Shown one piece after another: positions 3-29,675 of a DNA stretch of 64,000 bases. Positions within the stretch are counted from its first letter, which is position 1. Every line of letters begins with the position of its first letter. The position numbers and the translations under genes are program-made. Below the pieces are notes generated by a model. That model was not told the origin of the DNA, ran no database searches, and worked only from the letters and a program-made list of their open reading frames with translations. Source of the stretch: an uncultured Clostridia bacterium (GTDB lineage Bacteria > Bacillota > Clostridia > Oscillospirales > Acutalibacteraceae); NCBI GenBank assembly GCA_944380845.1, contig CALWIU010000067.1, positions 20,328 to 84,327 of the forward strand, written 5' to 3'.

Positions 3-3000
3 ACTGCTGAAATTCTCGACTGTATCTTGTCCCCGATTCTTGAGCTGGTCAATCGTATGACCAACGCACCGCTGGATACGGTCATGAAGATGCTGCCGAA
101 TCTGATGTATGGTTTGATTACCGATCAGATTACGGCGTTGATCGGTGCGATCAATCTGAACATCCATGCTGAACTGGAACTGGATGTCGATGGCGGCTCG
201 CTGGGTGAAGCGATTACGCAGTTGATCGTTAATGCGGTTGAAGGAAATCTGAAATTTGATGTTCCGCTGAATGTCGGTGAGCTGCTGGGCGGTTCTCTTT
301 CCGATATGCTGCCCTTCGATCTGACCGATATCAATGCGATGATCGATTATATTGTAAGTGAAGTTGCGGGCATTTCTCTTGATGTTCCCACGCTGAACTC
401 CGGTGCTATTGTTGGCGCAGCGGATTTGCAGCGCAATGTCTTCAGTTACCGCCCGAGCGGTACGCGCAACAACTTTGTTGTTGACCGTGCTGATTTGCTG
501 TGGGTCCTTTGGGATTACATTGCCACAGCTGTGGGCAACAGAGATTTCCTGAACCAGATTTTGACTTTGGCTTCTCCGGATGAACCGATTGAGCTGCCTG
601 AAATGGTCTATGATATTCTGGATAACCTTTCCATGCAGCCCGATCAGGCGCTTGCAGCCGTTACAGAGCTTCTGGTGCCCAATGTGGATGAAAACGGCAA
701 CGGCGCTTATGCGATGACTCCCTATGAGTGGTATACGACTGATATGGGCGTCAACGACGCGGTATCCGCTGAAGATTTCGCGTACGCTTATTTGAATTAT
801 ACCAATGACTGGACCGAAGCTGCCGCTCTCGGCGTGGTCAGCAATCTGGATGCGGTTCTTAACGATGTCCTTGCTGGTTCCGCAGATGGGCAGACAGCGG
901 GCGATCTTGTTAACAGCTTGCTGAATTCTCTGTTTACCAATGCGAACCTGACGGCTCTGATCAAGGTTATGGCTGAGAATCTCGGAGCGCTGGGAACCGG
1001 CGCCATTGGAAACCTGATCCGCGATAAGTTTGATGTGGATATGGGGATCTGGACTGCGCAGTACGCTGATCTCTTCGCTCTGGAAGAGGTGCCGGTATTC
1101 GATCAGGCAACCATCGACCGCGCGCAGGCGCAGCTTGGCGCGTTGACCGGTGAAGCCGATGCCGACGGCAATATTCAGTGGTCTCTGAACGGTGCGCCTC
1201 TGGTAGATGGCGACCGTGAGCAGTTTAAGTCTGCTATCATCCTTGTTATGAGCGAGTTCGCTCCGTTGTTCAACAAAATTTTGCTGGGCGAAGATATCGA
1301 GCTGTTTGACGGCGCGATTCAGGTGATCGGCTATGATACCTATGACGCAGCCATCATCCCGCTGGTGGAAGCGCTTGGTGTAGACGATGCTTTAACGCAG
1401 ACAGAATTTGCTGCCAATTATTCCAACGATGCCGACGCTGGTCTGGAATACATCATTGATACGCTTTTCGCAAAATTAGATGAATTTACTGCCGGCGACA
1501 TGGTCGGCGAGATTCTGGATGTCCTTCCCGGTCTGCTGTACTTCCTGCAAAGCGGCGGCCTTTCGGACTTTGTTCTGAATCTGGCACATCCGCTGCTTGT
1601 TATCCTTGATGCGGTTCGTCCGATCTTTGATCTGGATGTAAACAGCTTGCTTCAGGGCGTTATCGATGAGGCTGCTGCCGGCACAAATGAGAATTATGAT
1701 CCTGAGGATGAAGATCGCTACATGATCGACATCACCAATCTTGATTTGAATGCTGTTTATGCTCTGGTTGAAGCGTTCACCGGCATTGAGGTTTCCGAAC
1801 CTCTGTCCTACGCCATTGAAGGTCTTGTGAAATACAGCGGTGTTGAGGATGTCGCGTCGAAGAGCGTCTTCCTTGGCAATACCAGAAAGACCATTACCTT
1901 CTCCGGCGACAGACATGACGGGCTTACGGCTGAAGAGCAGAAGCTCTATACCAGAGCGGACACTTTGACTGTTCTGATCAGTCTGGTTCTGGATCTGGCA
2001 AAATATCCCGGCAATGCGGAAAAGATTGACGCGCTGATCGGCGACGATTCCAATATCATGCAAACGATCGTTGCGTTGCTTGACTATGATGCTTCTGCGC
2101 TGGTTCCGTCCGAGCCTGACTGGTTCTATATGGTGGAAGCTGCGCCCGATGCTGACAGTCTTGCGGACTTCATCGCTACCAGCGAGGATCGTTCCGCTGA
2201 AAACATCTCTTATGTGTATTACACGCAGCAAGATAAGAATAAAGAAAATCTCTGGTCGCAGGCAACTGCGGAAGCGCTCAGCGCCAACCTTGCCAAACTG
2301 GTTGACACCATTCTGGTCGAAACCAGCGGCGCTGATCTGAATACAACGCTGGCGAATCTGTTCGCCGAGGCCAATATTTACAGCGATTACACCATTGCGC
2401 AGATCGGTCATCTGCTTGCCGGTCTTCTGACAGAAGTTCCCGAAGCGTATCTTGATCTGATTGGTGTTGTTGTTGATGCGGATCTGAGCTACTATGATCA
2501 GTTTACCGCTGAACCCGATGAATCGCTGAAAGCAAACACCCTGACGAAGGATGAATTTGCTGAAAAACTTGCCGAACTGGTTAAACCCGCCAGCAAGCTG
2601 CTTGACTGGTTGCTCTTCGGCAAAGACATGAAGTTCTTCTATGGCATGGATGGCACCGACGCTCTTGTCGTTCCCGGCAACAACGGATATCAGACCGGTC
2701 TTGCCCCGATCCTTGAGGCGTTGCAGATTGCTGCTCCTGCTGCTGAAGAAGGCGCGACGACTGAAACCATGATCGTTCCCGTGATCAACGCGGTTTTGAA
2801 CAAGATTGATGAGATCGTCAACGCCGGTGAAGAGCAGAATGCCCTTCAGGTAATTCTGAACCACCTGCCCAATATTCTGTACTTCCTGAATGCGGGCGGT
2901 TTGACAACCTCTGTTGACAATCTGCTTTTGAGTGTCAACGGTTTGTTGGCTGCTGCGGCTCCGCTGACCGGCATGGAAGGCAATCTGAATGATCTGATCA

Positions 3001-6000
3001 ATCAGTTGCTTGCCGATGAAGGCATTGCGGTTGATTTGAACGATCTGAGCTTCGGCGCCGTGGCAAATATCGTCACTGAGCTGACCGGCATTGAGATTCA
3101 GGATGCCGTGGCTCTGACGGTTACCGACAACGAAGGCAACGAAGTCAACTGGAATTATCTGGATGATATCTTCCTTGGCAAACTGGAAGAAAATACAGAA
3201 ACCGTTACCGGCATGACTTCTTACCGTGCCGTTATGACTGAAAAGGCGCAGGCTGATTTGATTACGATTCTGCTGTGCTCGGCACTGGATATCGTGAAAT
3301 ACGACGCCAACAAAGAGCCCTTAACCGAACTGCTCGGCGCCGATGTATACGACACGATCATGACACTTCTGACGGTCGATACTTCCAAGTATGAGCCGAA
3401 TGATCCGAACTGGTTCTATATGGTTGATCCCGCTCCCGAAACCGACGAGGAAAAGAGTGCGGTAATCGCTGACAGCGCGAATCTTTCCGGCGCTACCATC
3501 TCTTACATCAGAGATGCGTATAAGCAGGACGGCAACCTCTGGACAACTGCTTCTGCTGATTTCCTGAGCAAAAACCTTGTCGTGATCATTGATATGATTG
3601 TTGAAGCGAAGAAGGGCGCCGATTTGAATACGGTGCTGGCAACCGAGTTTGCGAACGGCAAACTGTACAGCCAGTATAACCTGGATCAGCTTCGCAACCT
3701 GATCGGTGGTTTGCTTGCCGAAGTTCCCGACCTTTACCTTGATTTGATTGGCGTTGTCCTTGACGCAGACCTGAGCTATTATACTGACTTTGCCGCAGCG
3801 GGCGAAGTTGACGAGTCCCTGAAGGATGTTATCCTGACGAAGGAAGAGTTTGCACAGGGTCTTGCTGAACTGATTGCTCCTGCCGCACCCGTTCTTGACT
3901 GGGTACTCTTTGGCAAAGACATCACTGCTTTCTATACCAAGGAAGGCGACGATGCTCTGGTTATCCCCGGCAACGACGGTTACAAGACCGGCCTTGTTCC
4001 GATCCTTGAGGCTTTGCAGATCGAAGCGCCCGATCCCGCTGATTATGAGAATCCCGGCGTCGAATCGATGGCATCTGATGTGCTGCTTGCGATCATGAAC
4101 AAAATTGACACCATTGTCAATGCCGGCGACGGCGAGGCTGCACTCCAGACGATGCTGGATATGCTGCCCAATATCGTTTACTTCATCAATGCCGGCGGTT
4201 TGACTGCTTCTGTCAACAATCTGCTGCTGGGCGTCAATGTCCTCTTTGAAGCGGCAGCTCCGCTGACCGGTCTTGACGGAAATGTCACCGATTTGATCAA
4301 CGGCCTGCTTGCCGATGAAGGCATTACCCTGGATCTGAATAATATCAACTTCTCAACGATTTCTGATGTCTTGGCTGCTAAGCTGGGTCTGTACATTGAA
4401 GACGCAGTCTCTGTTACGACAGAAGACGGCGAATGGAACTATCTGAAAGACCTGTATGTCGGTCAATTGGTTGACAACACCGCGAACAGCGTATCCGGTA
4501 TGGATTCCTACATGGCGGTTCCCACCGAAGACGGCACCACGCAGAGAGATGTTCTTACGGTTCTGCTGTGCGGCGCACTTGACATCATCAAGTATCCGGC
4601 TAATGAGCAGGTTCTTGTCGGCTGGTTCGGACAGAATGTCTATGATGGCATCATGAATGTTTTCGCCCTGAAGGGTGACGGCGCTTATCAGGATGTCAGC
4701 TGGATGTATACGGATGGCGAAGGCAATATTCTTGACGAGTACAAGGATAAGATCTTCTCCCCCTTGAAAGACCTGAACGGCACTTTCGATTATGGTTACG
4801 ACGAGTACTGGACGAGAGAAAAAGCAACTTATGTTGCTGAGAACCTGAACGACTTTATCAATGGCTTGATTAAGTTGCTGGGCGTCGAGATCGATGGCAT
4901 CAACCTTGAAAATCTTGGCGACATCATCAACCAGCTGATTGGCGATAACCTTTACACCAATGAAAATGCGGCTGCTCTTGCAAAGGCGGTTGCCGACCTT
5001 GTAGCGCAGTTTGCAGATTACGGCGATGGTTTGATCACCGAAGCGTTGAAGGAAGTCCTCGGCGTTGATTTGACCGTTTATGAGAAATACGCGAGCGGTA
5101 ACTATGACTTCGGCATTGAATCCGGCAACAGAGATCAGTTCGCTGATGCAATTGTTGAACTGCTGATGCCGCTTGAGCCGATTCTCAAGGTCATTTTGAC
5201 CGGTGAAGACCTCAAACTTCTGGTTGACAAAGATGGCAACACCGCAGTTACGATTTACGGCGGCGAGGGTTATAAATATGCGATCATTCCGCTGCTTGAA
5301 GCATTTGATCGTGATAACCCGAATATTAAGACGCCGGAAGAGTATATCGCTGATGTCAATGCTGATCCGGAAGCTCTGGTTCGTGACATTCTGACGCCTG
5401 TCTTCGATGTTCTGGACTATGTGCTTGCTGATCCGATGAACCATCTGCTTGAAGTTATGCCGTCTCTGGTGTACTTCATCAACTCCAACGGTGTGGATAC
5501 GGTATTCAAGAATGCCATCCACCCGGTCACTGAAATTCTGACGGCGATCGAGCCGATCACCGGTCCGGTGAACCTGTATGATGTGATCGGTATCGACTTG
5601 TCCACCATCGACTTCAATTATCTGGCGCAAATGCTGCTGGATATGCTCGGTGAAGGCATTGGCGCGGAGATCGCTCCTGCCGCCATCAACGCCATCGCTG
5701 ACATGACCATGGGCAAACTGGTCACTTACACATCAAAGAACGGCAATCCTGCCGTCACGATGGAATATGTCGAGGGCGACGCCAGCCTGGCAGGTTCGGC
5801 AGATATGCTGACTGTCCTGCTTCGCTTCGCACTGAAGTGGATCACCCTGCCTGAGAATCAGGAGACGGTAAAGGCTCTGATTTCCGAGAACATTCCGAAT
5901 GCCGAGACGGCTGAGTATGTCCTTGGCACTTACGAGACCCTTTGCACCTATCTTGATAAACCGCACGGCATTAACATGATGCTTGGCGTTGTGTACTATA

Positions 6001-6281
6001 TCTTCTACGGTTTGGATATCGCAGTCGGTGAAACCAATGAGTGGTTCGATGATGTCAACGGGAAGTGGCAGTTTATCATCAAGCTGTTCGATGGCGCGGA
6101 TTCTGACTATCTGTCCAACTTCGGCGATGCGCTGCATAAGCTCTTCGGATTTACTGAAGATGTAATCGACGAAGAAGGCATTGCTTCCAACGGTTTGATT
6201 GCTTTCTTCCAGAAGATCATCAACTGGTTCAAGGCGATTATCGAATGGATCAAGGATCTGTTTGCCGGTATCGGTGGCTAA
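3..6281 (+). CDS. giant repetitive protein, 5' end outside window
   Basis: The reading frame is open from the left edge, so the start lies upstream; at least 2,092 residues are visible. I do not recognise a named family. The protein is acidic, rich in Leu, Asp, Asn and Ala, and built from divergent repeats. A core of the form hydrophobic-LPxLxYF-(I/L)-N-x-G-G recurs with its proline codon at 1527, 2868, 4167 and 5460, with a weaker copy at 96, giving units of roughly 430-480 codons. Other shared blocks are DLIGVV-DADLSYY, WFYMV and the run around YAxxxPLLEAL. Cys is very rare. The C-terminus is a short amphipathic tail (FKAIIEWIKDLFAGIGG) with no LPXTG motif, no clear membrane anchor and no S-layer-homology domain in the visible part. 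The gene ends before a strong terminator. A surface or secreted role is inferred only from size and repetitiveness. Confidence 0.85.
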   Translation, partial: TAEILDCILSPILELVNRMTNAPLDTVMKMLPNLMYGLITDQITALIGAINLNIHAELELDVDGGSLGEAITQLIVNAVEGNLKFDVPLNVGELLGGSLSDMLPFDLTDINAMIDYIVSEVAGISLDVPTLNSGAIVGAADLQRNVFSYRPSGTRNNFVVDRADLLWVLWDYIATAVGNRDFLNQILTLASPDEPIELPEMVYDILDNLSMQPDQALAAVTELLVPNVDENGNGAYAMTPYEWYTTDMGVNDAVSAEDFAYAYLNYTNDWTEAAALGVVSNLDAVLNDVLAGSADGQTAGDLVNSLLNSLFTNANLTALIKVMAENLGALGTGAIGNLIRDKFDVDMGIWTAQYADLFALEEVPVFDQATIDRAQAQLGALTGEADADGNIQWSLNGAPLVDGDREQFKSAIILVMSEFAPLFNKILLGEDIELFDGAIQVIGYDTYDAAIIPLVEALGVDDALTQTEFAANYSNDADAGLEYIIDTLFAKLDEFTAGDMVGEILDVLPGLLYFLQSGGLSDFVLNLAHPLLVILDAVRPIFDLDVNSLLQGVIDEAAAGTNENYDPEDEDRYMIDITNLDLNAVYALVEAFTGIEVSEPLSYAIEGLVKYSGVEDVASKSVFLGNTRKTITFSGDRHDGLTAEEQKLYTRADTLTVLISLVLDLAKYPGNAEKIDALIGDDSNIMQTIVALLDYDASALVPSEPDWFYMVEAAPDADSLADFIATSEDRSAENISYVYYTQQDKNKENLWSQATAEALSANLAKLVDTILVETSGADLNTTLANLFAEANIYSDYTIAQIGHLLAGLLTEVPEAYLDLIGVVVDADLSYYDQFTAEPDESLKANTLTKDEFAEKLAELVKPASKLLDWLLFGKDMKFFYGMDGTDALVVPGNNGYQTGLAPILEALQIAAPAAEEGATTETMIVPVINAVLNKIDEIVNAGEEQNALQVILNHLPNILYFLNAGGLTTSVDNLLLSVNGLLAAAAPLTGMEGNLNDLINQLLADEGIAVDLNDLSFGAVANIVTELTGIEIQDAVALTVTDNEGNEVNWNYLDDIFLGKLEENTETVTGMTSYRAVMTEKAQADLITILLCSALDIVKYDANKEPLTELLGADVYDTIMTLLTVDTSKYEPNDPNWFYMVDPAPETDEEKSAVIADSANLSGATISYIRDAYKQDGNLWTTASADFLSKNLVVIIDMIVEAKKGADLNTVLATEFANGKLYSQYNLDQLRNLIGGLLAEVPDLYLDLIGVVLDADLSYYTDFAAAGEVDESLKDVILTKEEFAQGLAELIAPAAPVLDWVLFGKDITAFYTKEGDDALVIPGNDGYKTGLVPILEALQIEAPDPADYENPGVESMASDVLLAIMNKIDTIVNAGDGEAALQTMLDMLPNIVYFINAGGLTASVNNLLLGVNVLFEAAAPLTGLDGNVTDLINGLLADEGITLDLNNINFSTISDVLAAKLGLYIEDAVSVTTEDGEWNYLKDLYVGQLVDNTANSVSGMDSYMAVPTEDGTTQRDVLTVLLCGALDIIKYPANEQVLVGWFGQNVYDGIMNVFALKGDGAYQDVSWMYTDGEGNILDEYKDKIFSPLKDLNGTFDYGYDEYWTREKATYVAENLNDFINGLIKLLGVEIDGINLENLGDIINQLIGDNLYTNENAAALAKAVADLVAQFADYGDGLITEALKEVLGVDLTVYEKYASGNYDFGIESGNRDQFADAIVELLMPLEPILKVILTGEDLKLLVDKDGNTAVTIYGGEGYKYAIIPLLEAFDRDNPNIKTPEEYIADVNADPEALVRDILTPVFDVLDYVLADPMNHLLEVMPSLVYFINSNGVDTVFKNAIHPVTEILTAIEPITGPVNLYDVIGIDLSTIDFNYLAQMLLDMLGEGIGAEIAPAAINAIADMTMGKLVTYTSKNGNPAVTMEYVEGDASLAGSADMLTVLLRFALKWITLPENQETVKALISENIPNAETAEYVLGTYETLCTYLDKPHGINMMLGVVYYIFYGLDIAVGETNEWFDDVNGKWQFIIKLFDGADSDYLSNFGDALHKLFGFTEDVIDEEGIASNGLIAFFQKIINWFKAIIEWIKDLFAGIGG
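90..5600 (+). repeat. divergent ~1.3-1.4 kb intragenic repeats
   Basis: Homologous blocks recur in frame inside the giant gene. Anchor prolines of the LPxLxYF core lie at 96, 1527, 2868, 4167 and 5460, so the units are about 1431, 1341, 1299 and 1293 bases. The units starting near 2868 and 4167 are the most alike: both contain NAGGLT-SV, AAPLTG, D-N-DLIN-LLADEGI and DLIGVV-DADLSYY. The outer copies are more diverged. This pattern suggests old tandem duplication with later drift, not recent expansion. Confidence 0.75.
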
Positions 6282-12049: not shown

Positions 12050-14122
12050 ATGGAATATCAATATCTTTCAACGCCTATTAAAATCGGAAAATGTGAAATT
12101 AAAAACAGAATTGTCATGCCGCCTATGTTAATGGGGTTCAGTAATTTTGCCGGAATGCCCACAGAGCAGCTGATGGATTATTATGAGGAAAGAGCAAAGG
12201 GCGGCTGCGGTCTGATTATGACCGAAATCACAAGAGTAAATGATAAAAACGGTGCTGCCGCTTTTGCTCAGCTCTCTGCCAGTCATGATGACTGCATTGA
12301 GCCAATGCGGGAATTTGCCAGACGCATACATCGCCACGGCGCCAAATTTTTCGTACAGCTCCATCATCCGGGCAGACAAAATGTGGGTCTGCTTGTGGGG
12401 ACGGTTCCGCTGAGCATTCAGATGGAAAAAATAACAAAAGGTCTTTACGGCAAGCTCCTTTATAAACTCACGCCAAAAGTAGGCCCTGTGCTTTTAAAAC
12501 ATAATATTGTGCCTTCAAGCGTTGCACCTTCTGCCTGTCCGCCGGCATATTTCGCAGGTGGCAGAGTCCGCGCTTTGACACACAAAGAGATCAAAGAAAT
12601 CGAACAGCAGTTTATTGATGCGGCGTTCCGGGTCTATACAGCCGGCGTTGATGGGGTAGAGCTTCATGGAGCCCATGGTTACCTGATTCAGCAGTTTTTA
12701 AGCCCGTATACCAACAGGCGCACGGACGAATACGGCGGTTCCCTGCAAAACAGAATGCGTTTTCTTCTGAACATTATCAAAGGGATCAAAGACCGCTGCG
12801 GACAGGATTTCCCGCTTATTGTAAGGCTCTCGGTGGATGAGTGCTACGATAAAATCGGATTCCCCGACAGGGGCTATAAGCTCGCCGATGGTGTGGAAAT
12901 GGCAAAAATTCTTGAAAAAGCGGGAATCGACGCCATTGATGTATCATGTGCGGGATACGATACCTTTAACTATTGGCTGGAGCCGGTAAGCTTTGAACCG
13001 GGTTGGAGAAAATATATGGCAAAAGCCGTGAAGGAAGCGGTTTCGATCCCTGTGCTTGCGGCGAATTTGATCCGTTCGCCTGAACAGGCAGAGCAACAGC
13101 TTGCGGACGGCGTGCAGGATCTGGTTTCTCTGGGCAGACCGCACATTGCAGACCCCTATTGGGCGGATAAAGCGCTGAACGGCGGTATCATCAAACGCTG
13201 CATAAGTTGTCTGCATTGTATCGAGTCCATGCAGAACAATGCGTATATTGGCTCTCACGGCGAGTGTTCCGTTAATCCCCGTGTTGGTCGAGAAGCAGAA
13301 AAGCTCGATGTGAACGGCGGCGGACGGCAGGTTGTGGTAATCGGTGCCGGTCCGGGCGGCCTGACGGCGGCAGAGTTCCTTGCAAGAAGAGGTTTTCAGG
13401 TAACCGTTTTTGAAAAGAACGAAAAATGCGGCGGACAGCTGCTTCTTGCGGCGGCGCCTCCTAAAAAAGGCAAAACCGCGTGGATGATCGAGGATCTTGA
13501 AGCGACGGTACGCGATCTGGGTGTTGAGATCATAACGGGCACCAAGGCAACGGCAGAACTGATCAAAGAACGCAATCCCTATGCGGTGATTGTTGCGGCA
13601 GGCAGTCTTCCCGTTAAGCCAAAATTCCCGGGCAATTATACCGAGGACAAAGTTTGCACCGCAGAGGAAGTACTCAGTGGGAAGGTAACGCCTGAGAATA
13701 AGAAAATCGCTTTGATCGGATCGGGTCTGACCGGCCTTGAGACCGCGGAAGCGCTGGTGGCAAAAGGCTGTTCGGTAACGATTATTGAAATGGCAGATGA
13801 GCCTGCGCCCGGCGCATGGATGCAGCATAAGGATGATATCATACCCAAATTGCTTGCAGCTGGAACGGGAATTTATACAAGTGAAAAACTTACAGCCATA
13901 TATAATGATAAGGTTGAAACAGAAAATACAAAGACCAAGGCGAAGAAAACCTTTGCCTGTGAGCTTACGGTTCTTGCGCTTGGTTCCAGACCCGACAAAA
14001 CCATTGTCGAGCAGCTGCAAGCGGCAGGAATCGAGCCAATTGTTATTGGCGACTGTAATAAGGTTGGCAATATTGCCAACGCCACGAAGGCAGCTTATCT
14101 TGCGGCTATCAGCCTGAAATAA
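12050..14122 (+). CDS. NADH:flavin oxidoreductase, 2,4-dienoyl-CoA reductase/BaiCD type
   Basis: This 690-residue enzyme has the three-part architecture of the FadH/BaiCD/enoate-reductase group. An FMN-binding TIM barrel of old-yellow-enzyme type spans about residues 1-370 (KNRIVMPPM, QLHHPGRQ, DGVELHGAHGYLIQQFLSP, NRRTDEYGGS, SLGRPHIADP). An iron-sulfur Cys cluster follows (CISCLHC, then Cys in GECSVNPRVG), and then an FAD/NAD(P) two-dinucleotide domain (VVVIGAGPGGLTAAEFLARRG near residue 425; second glycine motif IALIGSGLTGLETAEALV). Such enzymes reduce activated C=C bonds of enoates, dienoyl-CoA or 3-oxo-delta4 steroids and bile acids. The cluster spacing here is Cys-x2-Cys-x2-Cys, slightly tighter than the x3 of E. 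coli FadH. The substrate cannot be read from the sequence. Confidence 0.88.
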   Translation: MEYQYLSTPIKIGKCEIKNRIVMPPMLMGFSNFAGMPTEQLMDYYEERAKGGCGLIMTEITRVNDKNGAAAFAQLSASHDDCIEPMREFARRIHRHGAKFFVQLHHPGRQNVGLLVGTVPLSIQMEKITKGLYGKLLYKLTPKVGPVLLKHNIVPSSVAPSACPPAYFAGGRVRALTHKEIKEIEQQFIDAAFRVYTAGVDGVELHGAHGYLIQQFLSPYTNRRTDEYGGSLQNRMRFLLNIIKGIKDRCGQDFPLIVRLSVDECYDKIGFPDRGYKLADGVEMAKILEKAGIDAIDVSCAGYDTFNYWLEPVSFEPGWRKYMAKAVKEAVSIPVLAANLIRSPEQAEQQLADGVQDLVSLGRPHIADPYWADKALNGGIIKRCISCLHCIESMQNNAYIGSHGECSVNPRVGREAEKLDVNGGGRQVVVIGAGPGGLTAAEFLARRGFQVTVFEKNEKCGGQLLLAAAPPKKGKTAWMIEDLEATVRDLGVEIITGTKATAELIKERNPYAVIVAAGSLPVKPKFPGNYTEDKVCTAEEVLSGKVTPENKKIALIGSGLTGLETAEALVAKGCSVTIIEMADEPAPGAWMQHKDDIIPKLLAAGTGIYTSEKLTAIYNDKVETENTKTKAKKTFACELTVLALGSRPDKTIVEQLQAAGIEPIVIGDCNKVGNIANATKAAYLAAISLK

Positions 14123-19877: not shown

Positions 19878-21797
19878 TCAGTTTGTGCCAAAGTGTCTGG
19901 ATTTATTCTTTGGTTTTTTTTGCGCTTTTTCCCTTGCGCGCAGACCGAACAAAACCGCGATAATGACCGCGGCTGCCGCCATGGGCAGTAAAATCCATAA
20001 GACGCCAGATCCACGAACACTGTCAGACAGATCAGTATCCTGGATGTTTTGCGCAGACAGATGGCGTTTGATAGCGGTTATGCCGGTAATATAGCCGTTG
20101 GCATCGGTCAGATATTCATACCCTTCCGGCGGGCTGCCCGCCTGTGACAGCAGCATGGGGACGCCTTCCGCGCCCGGAGCAATGGTCAAGGAAGAGGATT
20201 GATTCAGAAAACCAGCAGAACCGGATTGTCCCGAAACAACCGTGCCGCCCGATGTGCCGGAACCGCCCGAGGGAGTAACAAACTGGCCGCTGCCGCCGGA
20301 GGCGGTAAACATGAGCTGCGACAAGTAGTCACTGCCGGAAGAAGAGCCGGCAGACGGAGAGCCGGAGGGGGCGGTATTGATATCGGGAACCATCAGTGTC
20401 AGTACATTGGTTACCTGAGAGGGAAGTTCTGTCCCGAGCACTGTCAGTGCGCCGGTTGCTGAACCGAGCAGATTATTGCCGACAATCCCCAAAAGCGAGT
20501 TGCCGCCGGTTGTTCCCCCAGTCGAGTTGTTTTCCGGGGCTTCTTCACTGCCTTGCAAAACAGTCAGGGTGTAGCTTTGCGAAGTGGTTTTTTCCGGGCT
20601 TTGATAGGTGACGGTAATGGTGATATCCTGTGAATCAAGCTGTGGATCCAGCGCGCATTCGACATAGCTTCTGTCGGCGACCAGTTCCCCGTTGATTTCG
20701 ATCATGATTGTTTCCGTCGCGGTAGATGTCCGATATGCCTGCGGGCAAACCCAAATACGGGACCGGCGATATTTCAGCTGCGTTTCATAATGCGGGATAT
20801 CCGCGTAAAATTCACCGGCTTCCAGTGAAAAATATTCGGTGTTCGCGGCAACGGCGGTAAAGGCTTCCGAATAGCTCATGCCGCTTCGGATGGTAATGTT
20901 CGCGTCTCTGCCCATGACCTGAAGAAGATAGAAGGGCACTTCGCCGCGGTTCAGCGCCGATTGCAGCAGTTCCGGATCCAGGGAAATATCATATTCCATA
21001 CCCAGAAGCGCGGCTAAATATTTTTGCTTCAGTTCATCAAAATCGGCGTTTTCCGCATCGATGGAAATGCCGAGCTGCCGAATCATCATTACGGCGATCA
21101 TACGGTAAACTTCTTCGTCCGGCGTTTGTTTCGTAACAGAATAGCCGTTGGTCATCAATGCGATTTTGCAGGCGATCAGCACATATTCATCGATGGTATC
21201 GACTGTGCCAATACTCCATGCCGCCAGTGTTGCGGCGTCAATATTGAAAACCTGCGTCATGCACTGGATCAATGCTGCCTGCACGCTCATGCCCGGTGTG
21301 ATGGTTACATTGACTGCGCCGGTGGACAGCAGCGTATACAGTGCCCGGGCAAAAATCAGATTTTCCTGGTCGCCCAAACCGCCCTGCGGATACGCGATCC
21401 CCAGATCCGTCAGGTATTCCATGATAAATTCATCGCTGACATTGCGCGTCGCTTCCGATGCAAACTGGTTGATGTATTGCAGCACATAGAGATACGCGGC
21501 TTTTGACGCGCTGGCGTCCAGTGTAAACAGCTGTGTATAATAATTGACTTCCGAGCGGAATCCCTCTGGCGTGACCGAATAGGGATATTCCGGCTTTGGC
21601 GTCAGGGTCAAAGCCGTCATCGTGCCCTGGGTGTTGGTCATATCTTCCCTTGCGTCCAGTGCTTTCAGCCAGGCGGGGTTGGAAACAGAGTAAGAAAACT
21701 GCGTTTCAACCGTGACCAGCGTTGCCGCTGAAGCGAACGGCAGCAGCATTGACACGATTAGCAGAATCGCAAAAAAAACAGATAAGCGTTTTTTCAT
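19878..21797 (-). CDS. surface protein with cadherin-like domain and C-terminal membrane anchor
   Basis: This 639-residue protein is exported. A signal peptide (basic start, then FFAILLIVSMLLPFASA) is followed by a helical region of about 270 residues with no recognised family. A short beta-sandwich region around 350-420 (ETIMIEINGELV, QDITITVTYQSPEKTTSQSYTLTVLQG) resembles cadherin-like beta-sandwich domains. A low-complexity Gly/Ser/Thr stretch with GGTGTSGG-type runs follows, then a final membrane helix (VLWILLPMAAAAVIIAVLFG) with a Lys-rich tail. The helix and tail resemble a sortase signal, but no LPXTG precedes them. It follows galM by 34 bases and is probably in the same operon. The function is unknown. 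Confidence 0.8.
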   Translation of the reverse strand: MKKRLSVFFAILLIVSMLLPFASAATLVTVETQFSYSVSNPAWLKALDAREDMTNTQGTMTALTLTPKPEYPYSVTPEGFRSEVNYYTQLFTLDASASKAAYLYVLQYINQFASEATRNVSDEFIMEYLTDLGIAYPQGGLGDQENLIFARALYTLLSTGAVNVTITPGMSVQAALIQCMTQVFNIDAATLAAWSIGTVDTIDEYVLIACKIALMTNGYSVTKQTPDEEVYRMIAVMMIRQLGISIDAENADFDELKQKYLAALLGMEYDISLDPELLQSALNRGEVPFYLLQVMGRDANITIRSGMSYSEAFTAVAANTEYFSLEAGEFYADIPHYETQLKYRRSRIWVCPQAYRTSTATETIMIEINGELVADRSYVECALDPQLDSQDITITVTYQSPEKTTSQSYTLTVLQGSEEAPENNSTGGTTGGNSLLGIVGNNLLGSATGALTVLGTELPSQVTNVLTLMVPDINTAPSGSPSAGSSSGSDYLSQLMFTASGGSGQFVTPSGGSGTSGGTVVSGQSGSAGFLNQSSSLTIAPGAEGVPMLLSQAGSPPEGYEYLTDANGYITGITAIKRHLSAQNIQDTDLSDSVRGSGVLWILLPMAAAAVIIAVLFGLRAREKAQKKPKNKSRHFGTN

Positions 21798-23096: not shown

Positions 23097-23900
23097 ATGG
23101 ATCTGCAACTGCTGGGCGCTTATGGCGGACTGATCTTTCGGGTGCTGCTGAGCGTCAGCATTTTGTTCTTTCTTCTGATCAGCCTGCTTTTGCTGTTCAA
23201 CCGGAATTACGGGAAAAATGTAATTGCCCGCTTTATCAATGCCATAAGCGGTGAAACAGTAGATATTTCATCTTGGGAGGTTTCACTCGGCAGAGCCAAA
23301 ACCTGTGACATCGTTTTGAACAATCCGACAGTGTCCCGGTTCCATGCGGTAGTGGTTCGCCGGGGAAAGGGCTGGATGATTTTTGACACCAACTCCAAAA
23401 GCGGGATTTTGGTGAACGGGAAAAAGATCGATAAGCGCGCGTTTATTTATGACGGGGATATTATTTCGATGGGCACTTCTGTTTTGACTTTCCGTTCTCC
23501 GCTGTTCAAACGCCCGCAAGCGCAGAAAAAATCCGATGCAGCCTATCAAAAGATCCCTGCTGAACGCAAGGTCGTTACGGCGGCAAGGAAAGATGCGGGC
23601 AGAGCCATTTCCGCACTCGTCAATCTGGCGGATCAGTCGCTGGTGCTGCTGTTTGCTGAAGATTATATTATCGGCAGAGCAGCCGATTGTGATATCGTGC
23701 TGCCGGTCATGACCGTATCAAAGCATCACGCCCGGCTTTTGCGTCAGGGGTCGTCCTGGCGGCTGGAAGATTTGCGTTCGCGTGCCGGTACGCAGCTGAA
23801 CGGCACAGATGTGATCGGCTCCGTACCGCTTCGCGGCGGGGATGTAATCAATGTCGGCGGCGTCTATTTCCGTTTTATTGCCGACTATATGAACGAATAA
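23097..23900 (+). CDS. membrane-anchored protein with two FHA domains
   Basis: This 267-residue protein has an N-terminal membrane segment (residues about 10-38, LLSVSILFFLLISLLLLF) and two FHA domains, at about 60-130 (SLGRAKTCDIVLNNPTVSRFHA, later VNGKKI) and about 185-255 (IIGRAADCDIVLPVMTVSKHHA, later LNGTDV). Each has the Gly-Arg, Ser-x2-His and Asn-Gly residues that bind phosphothreonine. FHA proteins next to RodA/FtsW and a PBP recruit phosphorylated cell-wall proteins in Actinobacteria, where a PknB-type kinase is encoded nearby. No kinase gene is visible here. It starts the operon, with GGGAGG before ATG. Confidence 0.9.
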   Translation: MDLQLLGAYGGLIFRVLLSVSILFFLLISLLLLFNRNYGKNVIARFINAISGETVDISSWEVSLGRAKTCDIVLNNPTVSRFHAVVVRRGKGWMIFDTNSKSGILVNGKKIDKRAFIYDGDIISMGTSVLTFRSPLFKRPQAQKKSDAAYQKIPAERKVVTAARKDAGRAISALVNLADQSLVLLFAEDYIIGRAADCDIVLPVMTVSKHHARLLRQGSSWRLEDLRSRAGTQLNGTDVIGSVPLRGGDVINVGGVYFRFIADYMNE

Positions 23901-23909
23901 GGAAAGGGG

Positions 23910-23933
23910 GCGCGCCGCCGCGCGAAATTTCGC
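23910..23933 (+). repeat. GC-rich hairpin and 12-bp palindrome before ftsW
   Basis: Between the FHA stop and the ftsW start, GCGCG at 23910-23914 can pair with 23919-23923. A perfect 12-bp palindrome GCGAAATTTCGC lies at 23922-23933, 14 bases before the start codon. The ftsW ribosome-binding site is weak, so the structure could tune its translation. Confidence 0.45.
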
Positions 23934-23946
23934 AGGCGGGTTTGAT

Positions 23947-25323
23947 ATGGCAGATCCAAAAACCAAAAAACGCGGCAGTGTTTATGCTGTCGATGCGCCT
24001 CGTCGGACAGGGACGGCAACGCGTAAGAAACATAAAAATTATATTCCGCCTGATCTGGAACTGAAAAAGGGAAAAATCCGTGAAAAAATCGGCAAATGGT
24101 TTGTTTTAATGATCTTTTTAACGGTGTTGGAAGCAGCGATGGATTTGTCCGCTCTGAACGGATTGACCGAGCAGGAGCTTCCGGGCGTTATTCTTTTGCT
24201 GGGAATTTATTTCGCTGCACAGTGGGTGTACTACTTTGTGGCGGGGGTTCTGCTCAGACGGCGGATGGAACTGGAAATGGCGGGTTTTTTGCTTTCCAAC
24301 ATCAGTCTTGCCATCACCGCCAGCGTATACCCGGATCGGATTCGCACGCAGCTGATCGCCGTAATCGGCGGAATTCTGGTCTTTGCTTTTTTGACATGGT
24401 TTATGGGCAATGTCAATCGCGTCACCGTCAGCCGGATGCCTATCGGTATCGCTGCGGTGGGACTTTTGGCGCTGACGCTGGTTCTGGCGGAATATAACAA
24501 CGGCGCTAAAAACTGGTTGTTTTTAGGTCCGCTTTCCATTCAGCCTTCTGAGATTGTAAAGGTCGCCTTTGTTTTTGTCGGTGCGGCGACGCTGGATAAA
24601 ATTCAAAATACCCGTTCGATTGCAAAATATGTCGTTTTTGCCATGGTCTGCGTCGGATTGCTGTTTTTGATGCTGGATTTCGGTACGGCGCTGATCTTTT
24701 TCGCAACCTTCCTGATCATTGCTTTCCTGCGCTCGGGCGATATCAAAACCATTGTGCTGATTTGCACGGCGGCGCTGATGGGCGGCATTTTTATCATTTT
24801 ATATAAACCTTATGTCGCCAGCCGATTTGCAACTTATCGCCACATCTGGGAGTATATCGATGCGGGCGGTATGCAGCAGACCCGAACGATCATTTATTCC
24901 CTCAGCGGCGGGCTGTTCGGCGTAGGACTTGGCAACGGCAAACTGCGCAATGTGTTTGCCGCAACGGAAGATCTGGTTTTCGGCGTGGTTTGCGAGGAAT
25001 TGGGGATGCTGACGGCTATCGCGATTATGGCGGCATATGTTTTGCTGTTGGTTTATGCGATTCGCGGTGCAAAATATGCCCGTTCTTCCTTTTATGCAAT
25101 TGCCGCCTGCTCGGCAGCCGGTATGATTCTCTTTCAGGCGATGCTCAATGTGTTTGGCGTTACGGATATCCTGCCGTTCACCGGCGTGACACTGCCCTTT
25201 ATCAGCCGTGGCGGTTCGAGTATGCTTTGTTCGTGGGGACTGCTTGCCTTTTTGAAAAGTATGGATATCCGCACATATCCGAAGGTCATGCGCGAGCTGT
25301 ACCAGCAAAAAGAAAGGATCTGA
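23947..25323 (+). CDS. FtsW/RodA/SpoVE-family peptidoglycan glycosyltransferase
   Basis: This 458-residue SEDS protein polymerises lipid II glycan strands at the membrane. After a basic cytoplasmic N-terminus (about 1-45) come about ten membrane helices. SEDS hallmarks are present: NGAKNWLFLGPLSIQPSEIVKVAFV, LLFLMLDFGTALIFF with the catalytic-type Asp, SGGLFGVGLGNG, TEDLVFGVVCEELG, and LPFTGVTLPFISRGGSSML near the C-terminus. It lies between the FHA gene and a class B PBP, which suggests a dedicated SEDS-PBP pair. RodA, FtsW and SpoVE cannot be told apart from sequence alone; the context resembles actinobacterial rodA-pbpA. Confidence 0.9.
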   Translation: MADPKTKKRGSVYAVDAPRRTGTATRKKHKNYIPPDLELKKGKIREKIGKWFVLMIFLTVLEAAMDLSALNGLTEQELPGVILLLGIYFAAQWVYYFVAGVLLRRRMELEMAGFLLSNISLAITASVYPDRIRTQLIAVIGGILVFAFLTWFMGNVNRVTVSRMPIGIAAVGLLALTLVLAEYNNGAKNWLFLGPLSIQPSEIVKVAFVFVGAATLDKIQNTRSIAKYVVFAMVCVGLLFLMLDFGTALIFFATFLIIAFLRSGDIKTIVLICTAALMGGIFIILYKPYVASRFATYRHIWEYIDAGGMQQTRTIIYSLSGGLFGVGLGNGKLRNVFAATEDLVFGVVCEELGMLTAIAIMAAYVLLLVYAIRGAKYARSSFYAIAACSAAGMILFQAMLNVFGVTDILPFTGVTLPFISRGGSSMLCSWGLLAFLKSMDIRTYPKVMRELYQQKERI

Positions 25324-25329
25324 CGCAGC

Positions 25330-26703
25330 GTGAATACCATTTCAAAACGAGCAAAAATCTTATATGCCCTTGTCGCCGTTTGTCTGGTTGGCTCGATATT
25401 TCTGGGCGTGACCTTTTTTGTGCATGGAGATGAATATGCTTCCAATACGCGCAATCAGCATATTTACAGCGGGAATGTCCTGATCAGCGGCGGAAGGGTG
25501 CTTGATCGGGATGACCGGGTCCTGACCGCTGTGGAAAACGGCAGCAGGGTATACAACGAAGATTCTGTCATTCGACGCGCGACGCTTCATGTGTTGGGCG
25601 AAAGCGGCTATATCGCCGGCGGTGTGCTGGAACAGTACAGCGCAGAATTGATCGGATATAATCTGTTGACCGGCGTTTTTACCGCCACAGAGCAGGGCGG
25701 AAACGATATCCGCCTGACGCTGGATGCCGAACTTTGCGCAGATGCGTATCGCGCCATGGACGGCAGAAAAGGAGCGGTCGGCGTATACAACTATAAAACC
25801 GGAGAAATTGTCTGCATGGTTTCTACCCCGGCATATGATCCGAGCGATAAGCCGGAGGATATTGATGACAACGAAGATTATGAAGGCGCTTATTTGAATA
25901 AGTTCCTGTATGGTCAATATGTTCCCGGCTCCACTTTTAAAGTCGTTACCGCGGTATGCGCGGTGGAAAATATGCCTGATGTGCTGACGCGGACTTTTAC
26001 CTGCACCGGCGAATACCACGCTTCCGATGGAACGGTCATTTGTAATGATACCCATGGGGAACTGACTTTTCAGCAGGCATTCAATCACTCCTGCAACAGT
26101 GTGTTTGCGCAGTTGGCGGATGAGCTGGGCGGCGAAAAAATGACCGCGACCGCCGAAAAACTGGGCGTAACCTCTTCTCTTACGGTAAACCGTTCCAATA
26201 CGGCAAAAGGCTCTTATGATGTCTCAACTGCTTCCCATGCCGATCTTGGCTGGTCGGGGATCGGTCAGTATACAGATTTGGTCAATCCCTGCAATATGAT
26301 GACCCTTGCAGGGGCGGTGGCAAACGGCGGCACGGCAAGGATCCCCTATTTTGTGGACGGGGTCTATTCTTCTGACGGGCGGCTGGTCCGCAATGAAAAA
26401 AGTGAGCAAACAAAAAATTATATGAGCGCGTCTACCGCGTCGGTTATCAAAAATCTCATGCGAACCACCGTAACGGATTATTACGGCGAGGGGTATTTCC
26501 CGGATATGGAAATGTGCGCCAAAACGGGTACGGCCGAAGTCGGCGAAGAAAAGCGCCCCCATGCGTGGATGATTGGTTTTTCTCAGCGCGAGGATTTTCC
26601 CTATGCGTTTGCTGTCGTGGTTGAAAACGGCGGTTCGGGTTACAGCGCAGCGGGAAAGGTTGCTTCCCGCGTGCTGGGCAGCCTTTGGGATACCCTGTTT
26701 TAA
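25330..26703 (+). CDS. class B penicillin-binding protein (PbpA-like transpeptidase)
   Basis: This 457-residue membrane-anchored D,D-transpeptidase cross-links peptidoglycan outside the cell. One N-terminal membrane helix (about 8-30) is followed by a short non-catalytic domain. The transpeptidase domain carries the three active-site motifs: Ser-x2-Lys in PGSTFKVV near 195, Ser-Cys-Asn in FNHSCNSVF, and Lys-Thr-Gly in CAKTGTAEV. The dimerisation domain is short, as in PbpA of Actinobacteria, and no PASTA domains are present. The start is GTG, 6 bases after ftsW, with AAAGGAT inside the ftsW end. It is the presumed partner of the SEDS protein. Confidence 0.92.
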   Translation: MNTISKRAKILYALVAVCLVGSIFLGVTFFVHGDEYASNTRNQHIYSGNVLISGGRVLDRDDRVLTAVENGSRVYNEDSVIRRATLHVLGESGYIAGGVLEQYSAELIGYNLLTGVFTATEQGGNDIRLTLDAELCADAYRAMDGRKGAVGVYNYKTGEIVCMVSTPAYDPSDKPEDIDDNEDYEGAYLNKFLYGQYVPGSTFKVVTAVCAVENMPDVLTRTFTCTGEYHASDGTVICNDTHGELTFQQAFNHSCNSVFAQLADELGGEKMTATAEKLGVTSSLTVNRSNTAKGSYDVSTASHADLGWSGIGQYTDLVNPCNMMTLAGAVANGGTARIPYFVDGVYSSDGRLVRNEKSEQTKNYMSASTASVIKNLMRTTVTDYYGEGYFPDMEMCAKTGTAEVGEEKRPHAWMIGFSQREDFPYAFAVVVENGGSGYSAAGKVASRVLGSLWDTLF

Positions 26704-26833: not shown

Positions 26834-26861
26834 AAAAACACCAGCCGCCGATGGCGGCTGG
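26833..26861 (-). terminator. terminator of murL-murD2
   Basis: A perfect 9-bp stem (26841-26849 with 26853-26861) with a 3-nt loop is followed, on the minus strand, by TGTTTTTTT. Confidence 0.75.
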
Positions 26862-26901
26862 CAAAAGCAGCAGGTCAAAAAAGAAATTTTGCTACACGCT
26901 G

Positions 26902-26948: not shown

Positions 26949-28268
26949 TTAGTCACAGTGGTTCGCGTATTGCCGGACCAGTGTTTTGAAGTGATTGCCC
27001 TTTTCTTCAAAATCCCGGTATTTGTTGTAACTGGCGGCGGCGGGGGAGAGCACACAGGCCTTTCCTGCCGGTGTCAGGCGCACCGCATTTTGGACAGCTT
27101 CTTCCATGTCGGCAGCAAGAATAATCTGCGAACGGCAGCCGTTCTGCCGCAGAAGCGAGGCGATTTTATGGCCGGTGTCCGGCAGACAGATGATATTGTC
27201 GATCGGGCGCTTGCATAATTCGTCGGCAAAATCCCGGTAGTCCAGACCGCGATCCATCCCGCCGATAATGAGCGAGCCGACATTGCCCAGCGAATCAACG
27301 CCCATCAGAACCGAATAGGGAATGGTCGCAATGCTGTCGTTATAGTAGGAAACGCCGCCGAATGTGCCGACCAGTTCCATGCGGTTGGCAATGCCTTCAA
27401 AGGAGGTAATCGCTTGTTCAATGGCGGCGTCCGGCACGCCCAGCCGCCGGACTGCGGTCATGGCGACCGCGATATTTTGACGGTTATGGCTCCCCTTCAG
27501 GTGAGGATTGCAGCCGGCAAGACGAGCAAGGAAAGGATCGGGAGCGGTGGGGTCTGCCAAAATGACCTTTGCCTCAAGGGCGCTGGGGTCAAGGTATTTT
27601 GCAACGGTTGAATGGGGGTTGTAAATCAGAAAATCATTGCTTTGCTGGTATTTTGTGATATTCATTTTCGCCCGAAGATATCCCGCAAAACCATCGTTAT
27701 AATGATCGAGGTGCTCTTCGTACACATTGGTCAGTACCGCGATGTGCGGGGAAGAAGTCATAAATTCCAGCTGGTGGCAGGACAGTTCCATCACCGTCAA
27801 TTCATTTTCGGATTCTCCGATATGGTCAAAAACCGGTACGCCTACATTGCCGGTCAGACGCGCCCGCAGTCCTGCCGCTTGCAGCATCCGGTGAATCAGG
27901 GTTGCGGTGGTGGTTTTGCCTTTGGTTCCCGTTACGCCGATGACCGTGCTGTCAGAATACTTTAAGAACAAATCGGTCTGACAGGTGATTTCGCAGTGCG
28001 GCGGAATGGTGATCCCAACAAAGGGAATACCGGGGCTTTTCAAAACCAGATCGTAATCTTTCATCGCGTCAAGATAGGTGCTGCCGAAATGAAAAGAGAC
28101 TTTATCATCATCCAGCGAAAAGGGGTTCTGATCGGCAATGCCAAGGGGTTTGTCAGGCAGAAATTTGCGAATCAGCCGATAAGAGGATCGTCCCTCTCTG
28201 CCGAATCCGAGTATCAGGATCCGTTTGTCCGAAAACAGGCGGATCATGTCGTCAAGACTGCGAAACAT
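26949..28268 (-). CDS. murD2: UDP-MurNAc-L-alanine:L-glutamate ligase (MurD2 type)
   Basis: This 439-residue Mur ligase adds glutamate to UDP-MurNAc-L-Ala with ATP in the cytoplasm. It has the N-terminal nucleotide-sugar domain (ILILGFGREGRSSYRLI), the ATP loop GVTGTKGKTTTA near residue 115, ELSCHQLEF, NVYEEHLDHY, the Asn-Arg in IANRMELVGTFGGVSYYNDSIATIP, and the C-terminal domain (CVLSPAAASYNKYRDFEEKGNHF). These are MurD features. It overlaps the 3' end of murL by 17 bases, with AAAGGAG inside murL. In Xanthomonas the ligase paired with MurL (MurD2) uses L-Glu instead of D-Glu; that specificity is inferred here from the pairing. A classical murD could exist elsewhere. Confidence 0.88.
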   Translation of the reverse strand: MFRSLDDMIRLFSDKRILILGFGREGRSSYRLIRKFLPDKPLGIADQNPFSLDDDKVSFHFGSTYLDAMKDYDLVLKSPGIPFVGITIPPHCEITCQTDLFLKYSDSTVIGVTGTKGKTTTATLIHRMLQAAGLRARLTGNVGVPVFDHIGESENELTVMELSCHQLEFMTSSPHIAVLTNVYEEHLDHYNDGFAGYLRAKMNITKYQQSNDFLIYNPHSTVAKYLDPSALEAKVILADPTAPDPFLARLAGCNPHLKGSHNRQNIAVAMTAVRRLGVPDAAIEQAITSFEGIANRMELVGTFGGVSYYNDSIATIPYSVLMGVDSLGNVGSLIIGGMDRGLDYRDFADELCKRPIDNIICLPDTGHKIASLLRQNGCRSQIILAADMEEAVQNAVRLTPAGKACVLSPAAASYNKYRDFEEKGNHFKTLVRQYANHCD

Positions 28269-29628
28269 AACGATACATCTCCTTTACGCAGGATTGGTAG
28301 TTGTCGGGTACAAGATTTTGTTCGTTCCAGCTGGTAAACAGCGTCAGATCCGGTTTTTCTCCGGGCGCGTGCTCGTCAAAATACTTCAGCAGTGCCGGAA
28401 GCGGTTCGTTTACGCGTTTGGCTTTTGCCAGCGTCAGGGCAAGAGCGGTTCGCACTTCGGTCACAGTGCCCACACATTCAAAAGGCTTCACATCGGAAAA
28501 ACCGCAAAGCCCTTTGAAATCTTCTAACAGAGCGGTTTCGTCAAGCATACATTTGCCGAAAACAGCATCCAGATCTTTTTTGCTCAGGAAGGGCGAAAGG
28601 ATACAGTAAACAAACAGGCATTTCGGACAGGCGGCGCACCAGATGTTTTTTTTGCTGCCTGCGTTGCAGCTGCGAAAAACAGGAAGAAACTGGGGCAGCG
28701 ACGCGAACATTTTGGCGATCTGCAATTCGTTAAAAGGACGCAGCAGGCTGAAATATCGGATCGGCACACCGATGTTTCTGTTCAGATAGTCGGAAAAATC
28801 CCGTTCAAATTCATATGATTTAGAATACTGGTGGTTTACCGTCAGCCCTTCAATATTGGATTCATTCGCGCTGGATTCATTGGAAAGAACAATATCTTTT
28901 GCCCCGATTAAAAAGGCGCAGTAAGCGGAAAGAAAGGCGACGATTGCCGAAAACGGGGTGTGCCCGTTCAAAAAACCACGCCGGTTCAGCTCCAGAAGCG
29001 CCGGGTCGATGGTGCGATGGGTGCGAATGATCGCTTCTTCCCCGTCGCCCGCCGCCAGAACGGTGTCGGTGCGTGCCTTTTGGTCGTTCACGGTAAAGTA
29101 GCGAACGGTTTTTCCGTTGTTTTTCAAAAGCGTTGCTGTTACGGCAGAATCCTTCCCGCCGCCAATGGGAACCAGCGCATCTGTTTTTGCTTCAAAGACC
29201 AGAGGCTCGTGAAAGGCTTCCGGTTCGGGCGCTTCGATTTGGATCAATTCCTCCTCTGTCGCATCTATGCCATTGCGGTATAAAAATTCTCCCAGCCCGT
29301 TGAAATATAGCTTTTTCCACCAGCGGATTTCTTCCGCTGTAAGCCCGCCGCAGCGAACGGAAAGTTTTTCAGGAAGCACCGCTTTAAAATAACTGACGCA
29401 TTCTGCCATGCCGAAAAGGAAAGCGAGCCGTTTGGCATATTCATGATCCGCAGCCTGCACAAGCCGCAGGTTTTTGGTATCGATCACCGTTTGCGGCGTA
29501 AAGGAACAAAGCCCCGGTATCTCAAAGTGGAACCGAAGGGTTATTTGATCTTTTTCAGGAAGCACCTCATAGGAATGATAAATAAATTCAGCATATTGCT
29601 GTCGAAAGCTCAGTTCTTGCAGCTTCAT
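28252..29628 (-). CDS. murL: UDP-MurNAc-L-Ala-L-Glu epimerase MurL
   Basis: This 458-residue cytosolic protein carries an N-type ATP-pyrophosphatase (PP-loop) motif, VPIGGGKDSAVTATLL, near residue 170, then SNESSANESN and a Cys-rich stretch (SCNAGSKKNIWCAACPKCLF) near 325-345. This matches what I recall of MurL, the ATP-dependent enzyme that epimerises the terminal L-Glu of UDP-MurNAc-L-Ala-L-Glu to D-Glu, replacing glutamate racemase. The strongest support is the 17-base overlap with a MurD-type ligase, the same pairing as in Xanthomonas oryzae. It has its own promoter and an AGGTGA site. The alternative, an unrelated PP-loop ligase or thiolase, is less likely given the neighbour. Confidence 0.85.
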   Translation of the reverse strand: MKLQELSFRQQYAEFIYHSYEVLPEKDQITLRFHFEIPGLCSFTPQTVIDTKNLRLVQAADHEYAKRLAFLFGMAECVSYFKAVLPEKLSVRCGGLTAEEIRWWKKLYFNGLGEFLYRNGIDATEEELIQIEAPEPEAFHEPLVFEAKTDALVPIGGGKDSAVTATLLKNNGKTVRYFTVNDQKARTDTVLAAGDGEEAIIRTHRTIDPALLELNRRGFLNGHTPFSAIVAFLSAYCAFLIGAKDIVLSNESSANESNIEGLTVNHQYSKSYEFERDFSDYLNRNIGVPIRYFSLLRPFNELQIAKMFASLPQFLPVFRSCNAGSKKNIWCAACPKCLFVYCILSPFLSKKDLDAVFGKCMLDETALLEDFKGLCGFSDVKPFECVGTVTEVRTALALTLAKAKRVNEPLPALLKYFDEHAPGEKPDLTLFTSWNEQNLVPDNYQSCVKEMYRYVSQS

Positions 29629-29647: not shown

Positions 29648-29675
29648 ATTATATCGGGTTAAGAGAAAAAATCAA
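29648..29675 (-). promoter_or_regulatory. promoter of murL-murD2
   Basis: On the minus strand a -35 TTGATT (29675-29670), a 16-bp spacer and a perfect -10 TATAAT (29653-29648) lie 20 bases before the murL start. Confidence 0.7.

Follow-up and report, generated by a model that had tools for sequence, protein, structure and literature searches.

How does a bacterium supply D-glutamate (D-Glu) to its cell wall when no glutamate racemase, MurI, is recognised in its genome? The question was raised by a stretch of 64,000 nucleotides (the window, meaning the whole stretch of DNA that was analysed), positions 20,328 to 84,327 of the forward strand of contig CALWIU010000067.1 in assembly GCA_944380845.1, from an uncultured Clostridia bacterium of the Acutalibacteraceae, where a murL-like gene overlaps a gene for a MurD-type ligase. 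In Xanthomonas oryzae, MurD2 joins L-glutamate (L-Glu) and MurL then inverts it, consuming ATP and yielding AMP, as described in the review by Ogasawara and Dairi (PMC8788868). We propose, with a probability of about 0.9, that in the window organism murL and murD2 form a two-gene unit that takes the place of glutamate racemase. MurD2 would join L-Glu first, and MurL would then flip it to the D-form. The support comes from sequence comparison, namely from homology, from linkage and natural fusion of the two genes, from the specificity residues of the ligase, and from mutual exclusion with MurI. Given a MurL/MurD2-like pair in a Clostridia genome, the known pathway seems to work there too. The features concerned are the following.

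28252..29628, minus strand: murL, 458 amino acids (aa); NCBIfam NF041275 at 270.5 bits, E 1.9e-80; 38% identity to Xanthomonas sacchari MurL
26949..28268, minus strand: murD-type ligase (MurD2 candidate), 439 aa; TIGR01087 (MurD) at 286.3 bits, over the cut-off of 211.95; E185 and R340
28252..28268, minus strand: 17-base overlap of murL and murD, from the coordinates of the open reading frames (ORFs)
29146..29163, minus strand: GGGKDS motif, MurL residues 156-161, invariant in 48 of 48 aligned MurL sequences
28618..28668, minus strand: four-cysteine cluster C321, C331, C334 and C337 (MurL residues 321-337), invariant in 48 of 48 and also in X. sacchari MurL
27714..27716, minus strand: MurD E185, aligned with E. 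coli MurD D182 and X. oryzae MurD2 E197 (PMC8788868)
27249..27251, minus strand: MurD R340, aligned with E. coli MurD K348 and X. oryzae MurD2 R358 (PMC8788868)

The initial annotation had described a MurD-type ligase overlapping by 17 bases a PP-loop protein with GGGKDS and a Cys-rich zone, and ORFs, overlap and motifs were all located. NF041275 (MurL) was the sole NCBIfam match of the 458-aa protein, covering residues 63-404, and Pfam returned no family for it at E 0.001; in these two collections no family matched the PP-loop protein better than MurL. The alignment with MurL that the annotation had proposed extended over 325 positions of annotated X. sacchari MurL, with the motifs GGGKDS, NHQxSK, SCN, WCxxCxKC and KPFECVG common to both proteins. 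The X. sacchari record, with annotated murL and murD, was reached through its MurL match, and conservation was counted in a 48-sequence alignment (A2).

A scan of named genomes gave at least 586 pattern matches, of which 575 among the matches listed encode a relative, and the best 80 loci were kept. At all 80, murD lay on the same strand 3' of murL, either overlapping it or within 180 bases, or was fused to it. MurL-MurD fusions in a single ORF of 851-900 aa were found in four genomes of four families (G050, G574, G605 and G839; f10, f15, f18 and f25):

L038, 1524-4226: natural MurL-MurD fusion ORF
L164, 2536-5124: natural MurL-MurD fusion ORF
L165, 2979-5534: natural MurL-MurD fusion ORF
L166, 2838-5462: natural MurL-MurD fusion ORF

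Such naturally fused proteins point to a coupling of ligation with epimerisation. Distances between MurL proteins also tracked those between their MurD partners (r = 0.87, n = 80 pairs, none of 2000 permutations reaching as high) in a set from which two loci cut by contig ends were dropped and to which the window and X. sacchari were added. A plasmid of Pseudonocardia alni encodes a MurL-like protein (L173, 3815-5215) in a stretch whose annotated genes include no murD, and two further Pseudonocardia plasmids held a MurL match. Viral contigs gave 53 pattern matches, none of them a relative by tblastn.

The ligase was next compared at the positions that govern stereospecificity in X. oryzae MurD2, E197 and R358, whose E. 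coli MurD counterparts are D182 and K348; the converse residue change in E. coli MurD did not lead to acceptance of L-Glu (PMC8788868). The window ligase was 29% identical to X. sacchari MurD over 473 positions, and X. sacchari MurD carries the same Glu/Arg pair. Residue numbering agreed with a check against the catalytic His and the carbamylated Lys of E. coli MurD. Of the 80 loci where murD is linked to murL (the best 80 of at least 575), 74 had a Glu/Arg ligase and four an Asp/Arg one, and in two the ligase was cut by contig ends. The MurD of 28 MurI-bearing relatives (of 39, those with MurD fetched) was Asn/Lys in 26 and Asp/Lys in two. Where MurL-bearing relatives had both genes intact (13 genomes, a count that leaves out G014 and includes three genomes recurring among the 80 loci as L084, L133 and L158), Glu/Arg was found in 12 and Asp/Arg in G017. 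Nine alignment positions told 83 MurL-linked from 28 MurI-linked ligases. Residue 263, which differed between MurL-bearing and MurL-less congeners, proved variable in general. The window ligase was the one MurD over cut-off in its genome; the search for a second murD elsewhere, which the initial annotation had called for, gave none over cut-off, the next match reaching 114.7 bits against 211.95.

We then asked how MurL and MurI are distributed. Sixty relatives comprised 14 with MurL (in G014 only a fragment, at the end of a contig), 39 with MurI over cut-off, none with both and seven with neither; MurI was thus found in 0 of 14 MurL-bearing versus 39 of 46 MurL-less relatives. A survey of 394 genomes of the window's order, which shares some genomes with the first, gave 36 with MurL (over 500 bits), 300 with MurI over cut-off, none with both and 58 with neither (MurI in 0/36 versus 300/358; Fisher p 9e-26, uncorrected for kinship). 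Four MurL matches of 18-19 bits were dropped from this survey, and all four genomes had a strong MurI match; with these weak ones included, MurL matches fell in 17 of 169 genera of the order. At least 18 of the 58 genomes with neither gene belonged to families f13 and f21. MurI over cut-off was likewise found in none of 50 genomes traced from the scan of named genomes (through 50 of 77 loci), versus 351 of 398 genomes in a phylum sample. In the window genome the search for murI gave no match over cut-off, the best being an amino-acid/cysteate racemase, and congeners G003, G004 and G005 (92-96% complete) also held no MurI over cut-off. MurL and MurI exclude each other: no MurL-bearing genome examined held MurI over cut-off, in keeping with the genome lacking murI that the initial annotation had expected. 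Its broader claim, that this organism uses the MurL-MurD2 route, is supported by the family match, the Glu/Arg pair, MurI exclusion and the single MurD.

Several observations weigh against this proposal. The window genome is 87% complete (2.01 Mb in 79 contigs). The window MurL did not reach the 700-bit cut-off of NF041275. None of the 60 relatives reached it either; the model is named for Xanthomonadales and, judged by its name and cut-off, seems tuned to one lineage, so the missed cut-off would limit the label and not the homology. In the order, the 36 genomes that have MurL sit in few genera and are therefore not independent, and since 58 of 394 genomes held neither gene, MurI absence alone proves nothing. 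A full MurL match in the phylum sample came from the window genome only, three others reaching 18-28 bits; the trait is patchy, present in parts of the window's order and at the named loci and rare in the phylum sample. Four genomes of two lineages (the window's congeners G001, G002 and G006 on the one hand, G024 from genus g19 on the other) carried a MurD2-type ligase with neither MurL nor MurI over cut-off, so the Glu/Arg pair alone is no proof of a MurL-dependent route. Finally, a D-amino-acid transaminase-like protein of the window genome, matched near full-length at 214.7 bits (cut-off 277.45), is a possible source of D-Glu.

The lineages with the ligase type and without murL were dissected further, at the following loci:

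L071: murL-less locus with MurD2-type ligase
L072: murL-less locus with MurD2-type ligase
L073: murL-less locus with MurD2-type ligase
L074: murL-less locus with MurD2-type ligase

In G001, G002 and G006 (assemblies 84-91% complete), MurD was 67-70% identical to that of the window, carried Glu/Arg and occupied the corresponding position, next to yqeG, pepP and efp, with a gap of 496-559 bases where murL is missing. G024 has secA followed directly by a Glu/Arg murD, where L100 and L101 have secA, murL and murD; neither MurL nor MurI was found in G024 or in G855 of the same genus, each of which is 99% complete. All nine MurL-type positions were kept in the four murL-less ligases. No murL remnant was recognised in the gaps of the four loci (best E 0.057, on the wrong strand), and MurL was not found elsewhere in the G001, G002 and G006 assemblies, either in the 60-relative search, positive in 14 others, or in a further search that came back empty and included no positive genome. 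These lineages may combine a transaminase route and a tolerant ligase, may rely on a bifunctional DapF like that of Chlamydia (PMC5885031), or may possess an epimerase of a kind not yet known. It is a tentative and rather unlikely idea that a second, unrelated enzyme inverts L-Glu after ligation in them, or even that L-Glu stays in their cell wall. By keeping the ligase type without murL, they offer a natural experiment on the making of D-Glu.

The transaminase-like gene (L077, 5145-5993) offers an alternative for the window organism as well, in which it would provide free D-Glu, MurD would add D-Glu and MurL would be accessory. Near full-length matches occurred in the window genome and its congeners, and a homologue of 56-57% identity lies next to alr in G001 and G006, which have no murL. 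However, none of the 60 genomes reached the transaminase family cut-off, and among the 14 MurL-bearing relatives only five matched at over 200 bits, the other nine giving 86.2 bits or less, which leaves most of them with MurL as the only D-Glu route recognised here. In the murL-less G002 (84% complete; no MurL, no MurI) the transaminase match was only 25 bits, and in G024 it was 35 bits. Moreover, the window MurD has L-Glu-type residues, and the gene of the window genome sits with 5-oxoprolinase and D-glutamate cyclase genes, which may be catabolic. We consider this explanation quite unlikely. The L077 cluster itself (658-5993) comprises an alanine racemase, PxpA, a D-glutamate-cyclase family protein, two ORFs (possibly PxpB/PxpC) and the transaminase-like gene, and possibly serves D-Glu or 5-oxoproline metabolism.

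Less probable still is that glutamate racemase activity in this genome comes from a protein of contig C30 that weakly resembles MurI. It scored 54 bits to TIGR00067, yet with 220.8 bits for TIGR00035 (amino-acid racemase) and 224.5 bits for NF052483 (cysteate racemase) it passed the cut-offs of both models, was flanked by an ATP-grasp-like ORF (weak matches only) and an ORF with an asparagine-synthase-like start, and had its like in eight MurI-bearing relatives that hold a second, similarly weak match. We turned it down as MurI and read it as an amino-acid/cysteate racemase. Locus L039 (443-4001), with an ATP-grasp-like ORF, an aspartate/cysteate-type racemase and an ORF with an asparagine-synthase-like start, might make a D-Asp or D-Asn cross-bridge.

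The PP-loop motif of MurL raised the question of its fold. The profile match to TtuA was weak (E 7e-4), as was that to QueC, reached by 11 of 48 MurL members (best E 2.6e-4); DUF6395 was touched weakly by 44 of 48 (best E 5e-5). With E. coli QueC alone, hhalign gave an alignment that reached from the P-loop as far as the Cys cluster, at E 0.0069 and a probability of 5.5%, compared with E 0.22 for an unrelated E. coli protein. Against a 7-member QueC alignment only the Cys region was covered, with a re-run score of 30.0 versus 29.5 for the best of 40 column-shuffled alignments (mean 16.2; reversed 16.8). MurL thus resembles QueC and TtuA in its GGKDS-type motif and in a four-Cys pattern on the C-terminal side that aligned with that of QueC, and differs in that the scores are weak only and the genetic context is another. 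Together, GGGKDS, the TtuA and QueC matches and the invariant four-cysteine cluster are suggestive of an adenylating fold of the PP-loop type that holds a metal site, the PP-loop fold as such being likely. That the protein acts on another substrate (e.g. in tRNA or queuosine metabolism), its murD link being incidental, finds some favour in the weak similarity to QueC and TtuA and is most improbable in the face of murD linkage at 80 of 80 loci, four fusions, MurI exclusion and a direct MurL match.

The remaining signals at the locus bear on how murL and murD would be expressed:

28279..28285, minus strand: AAAGGAG, ribosome-binding-site-like, shortly 5' of the murD ATG and within the end of murL
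29648..29675, minus strand: promoter-like site 5' of murL, 10 of 12 matches, consensus only; four such sites in the region versus a shuffle mean of 3.2
26839..26863, minus strand: terminator-like hairpin 3' of murD, 11 pairs and a T run, consensus only; nine such sites in the region versus a shuffle mean of 5.7

Terminator-like sites, as consensus matches only, were found for both strands near murL-murD. The promoter-like and strand-specific terminator-like sites suggest that murL-murD forms its own two-gene unit, apart from the FHA-, SEDS- and penicillin-binding-protein (PBP)-type genes at 23097-26703. The initial annotation had placed the pair in an operon beside these genes. They do lie nearby, but on the opposite strand and convergent to murL-murD, with best NCBIfam matches all below cut-offs, and a PBP/FtsW/FHA neighbour recurred in only one of 102 relative loci checked (L026, of a congener), a set that includes three loci from genomes already represented and four loci without murL, and in which the flank is in many cases no longer than about 4 kb. 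Elsewhere in the window, a 2084-aa ORF stands at the start (27-6281), and an Old-yellow-enzyme/BaiCD-like oxidoreductase at 12050-14122 fell under the cut-offs of its best NCBIfam models. An RNA-family search at gathering thresholds returned one tRNA.

We further considered what the pair adds to the known range of the pathway. Reviews PMC8788868 and PMC5808125 name Gammaproteobacteria, Alphaproteobacteria and actinobacteria as MurL holders, PMC5808125 adding a fungus, cyanobacteria and an amoeba, where the orthologues are of low similarity. The X. oryzae pair is XOO_1319/XOO_1320, and Micromonospora and Salinispora orthologues were confirmed in vitro (PMC8788868). The titles and abstract starts covered by a literature search in which Bacteroidales was not a term held no report on MurL in Clostridia or Bacteroidales, and the excerpt of PMC12502697 made no mention of MurL. 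The 80 loci carried record titles of Oscillospiraceae, Ruminococcaceae, Ruminococcus, Lachnospiraceae, Lachnoclostridium, Enterocloster, Mordavella massiliensis and Eubacterium sp. ER2, together with several metagenome-assembled genomes labelled Bacteroidales, Bacteroidota, Bacteroidetes or Alistipes. On sequence grounds, the known L-Glu pathway is extended to Clostridia and, by record labels, to Bacteroidales; a wider range was what the initial annotation had foreseen for a Firmicutes occurrence. The L-Glu route has been held to occur in relatively few genera with many pathogens, and hence to be a narrow-spectrum drug target (PMC8788868). Many bacteria with gut or rumen record titles would share that target, provided that the pairs of Clostridia and Bacteroidales function alike.

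Among known systems, an absence of MurI is also met in Chlamydia, another way to live without it, with the difference that there a diaminopimelate (DAP) epimerase, DapF, has been shown to make D-Glu and so doubles as glutamate racemase (PMC5885031). The X. oryzae MurL-MurD2 system is matched in gene order, with two overlapping genes, murL then murD (the X. sacchari pair overlaps by 20 bases), in the specificity residues of the ligase, in the MurL motifs as seen via X. sacchari, and in having no MurI over cut-off. The window pair departs from the Xanthomonas one in sequence, with only 38% (MurL) and 29% (MurD) identity to X. sacchari, in its host, a member of Clostridia, a group absent from the lists in the excerpts of PMC8788868 and PMC5808125, and in the occurrence, in four genomes of the window's order, of single proteins that unite the two enzymes.
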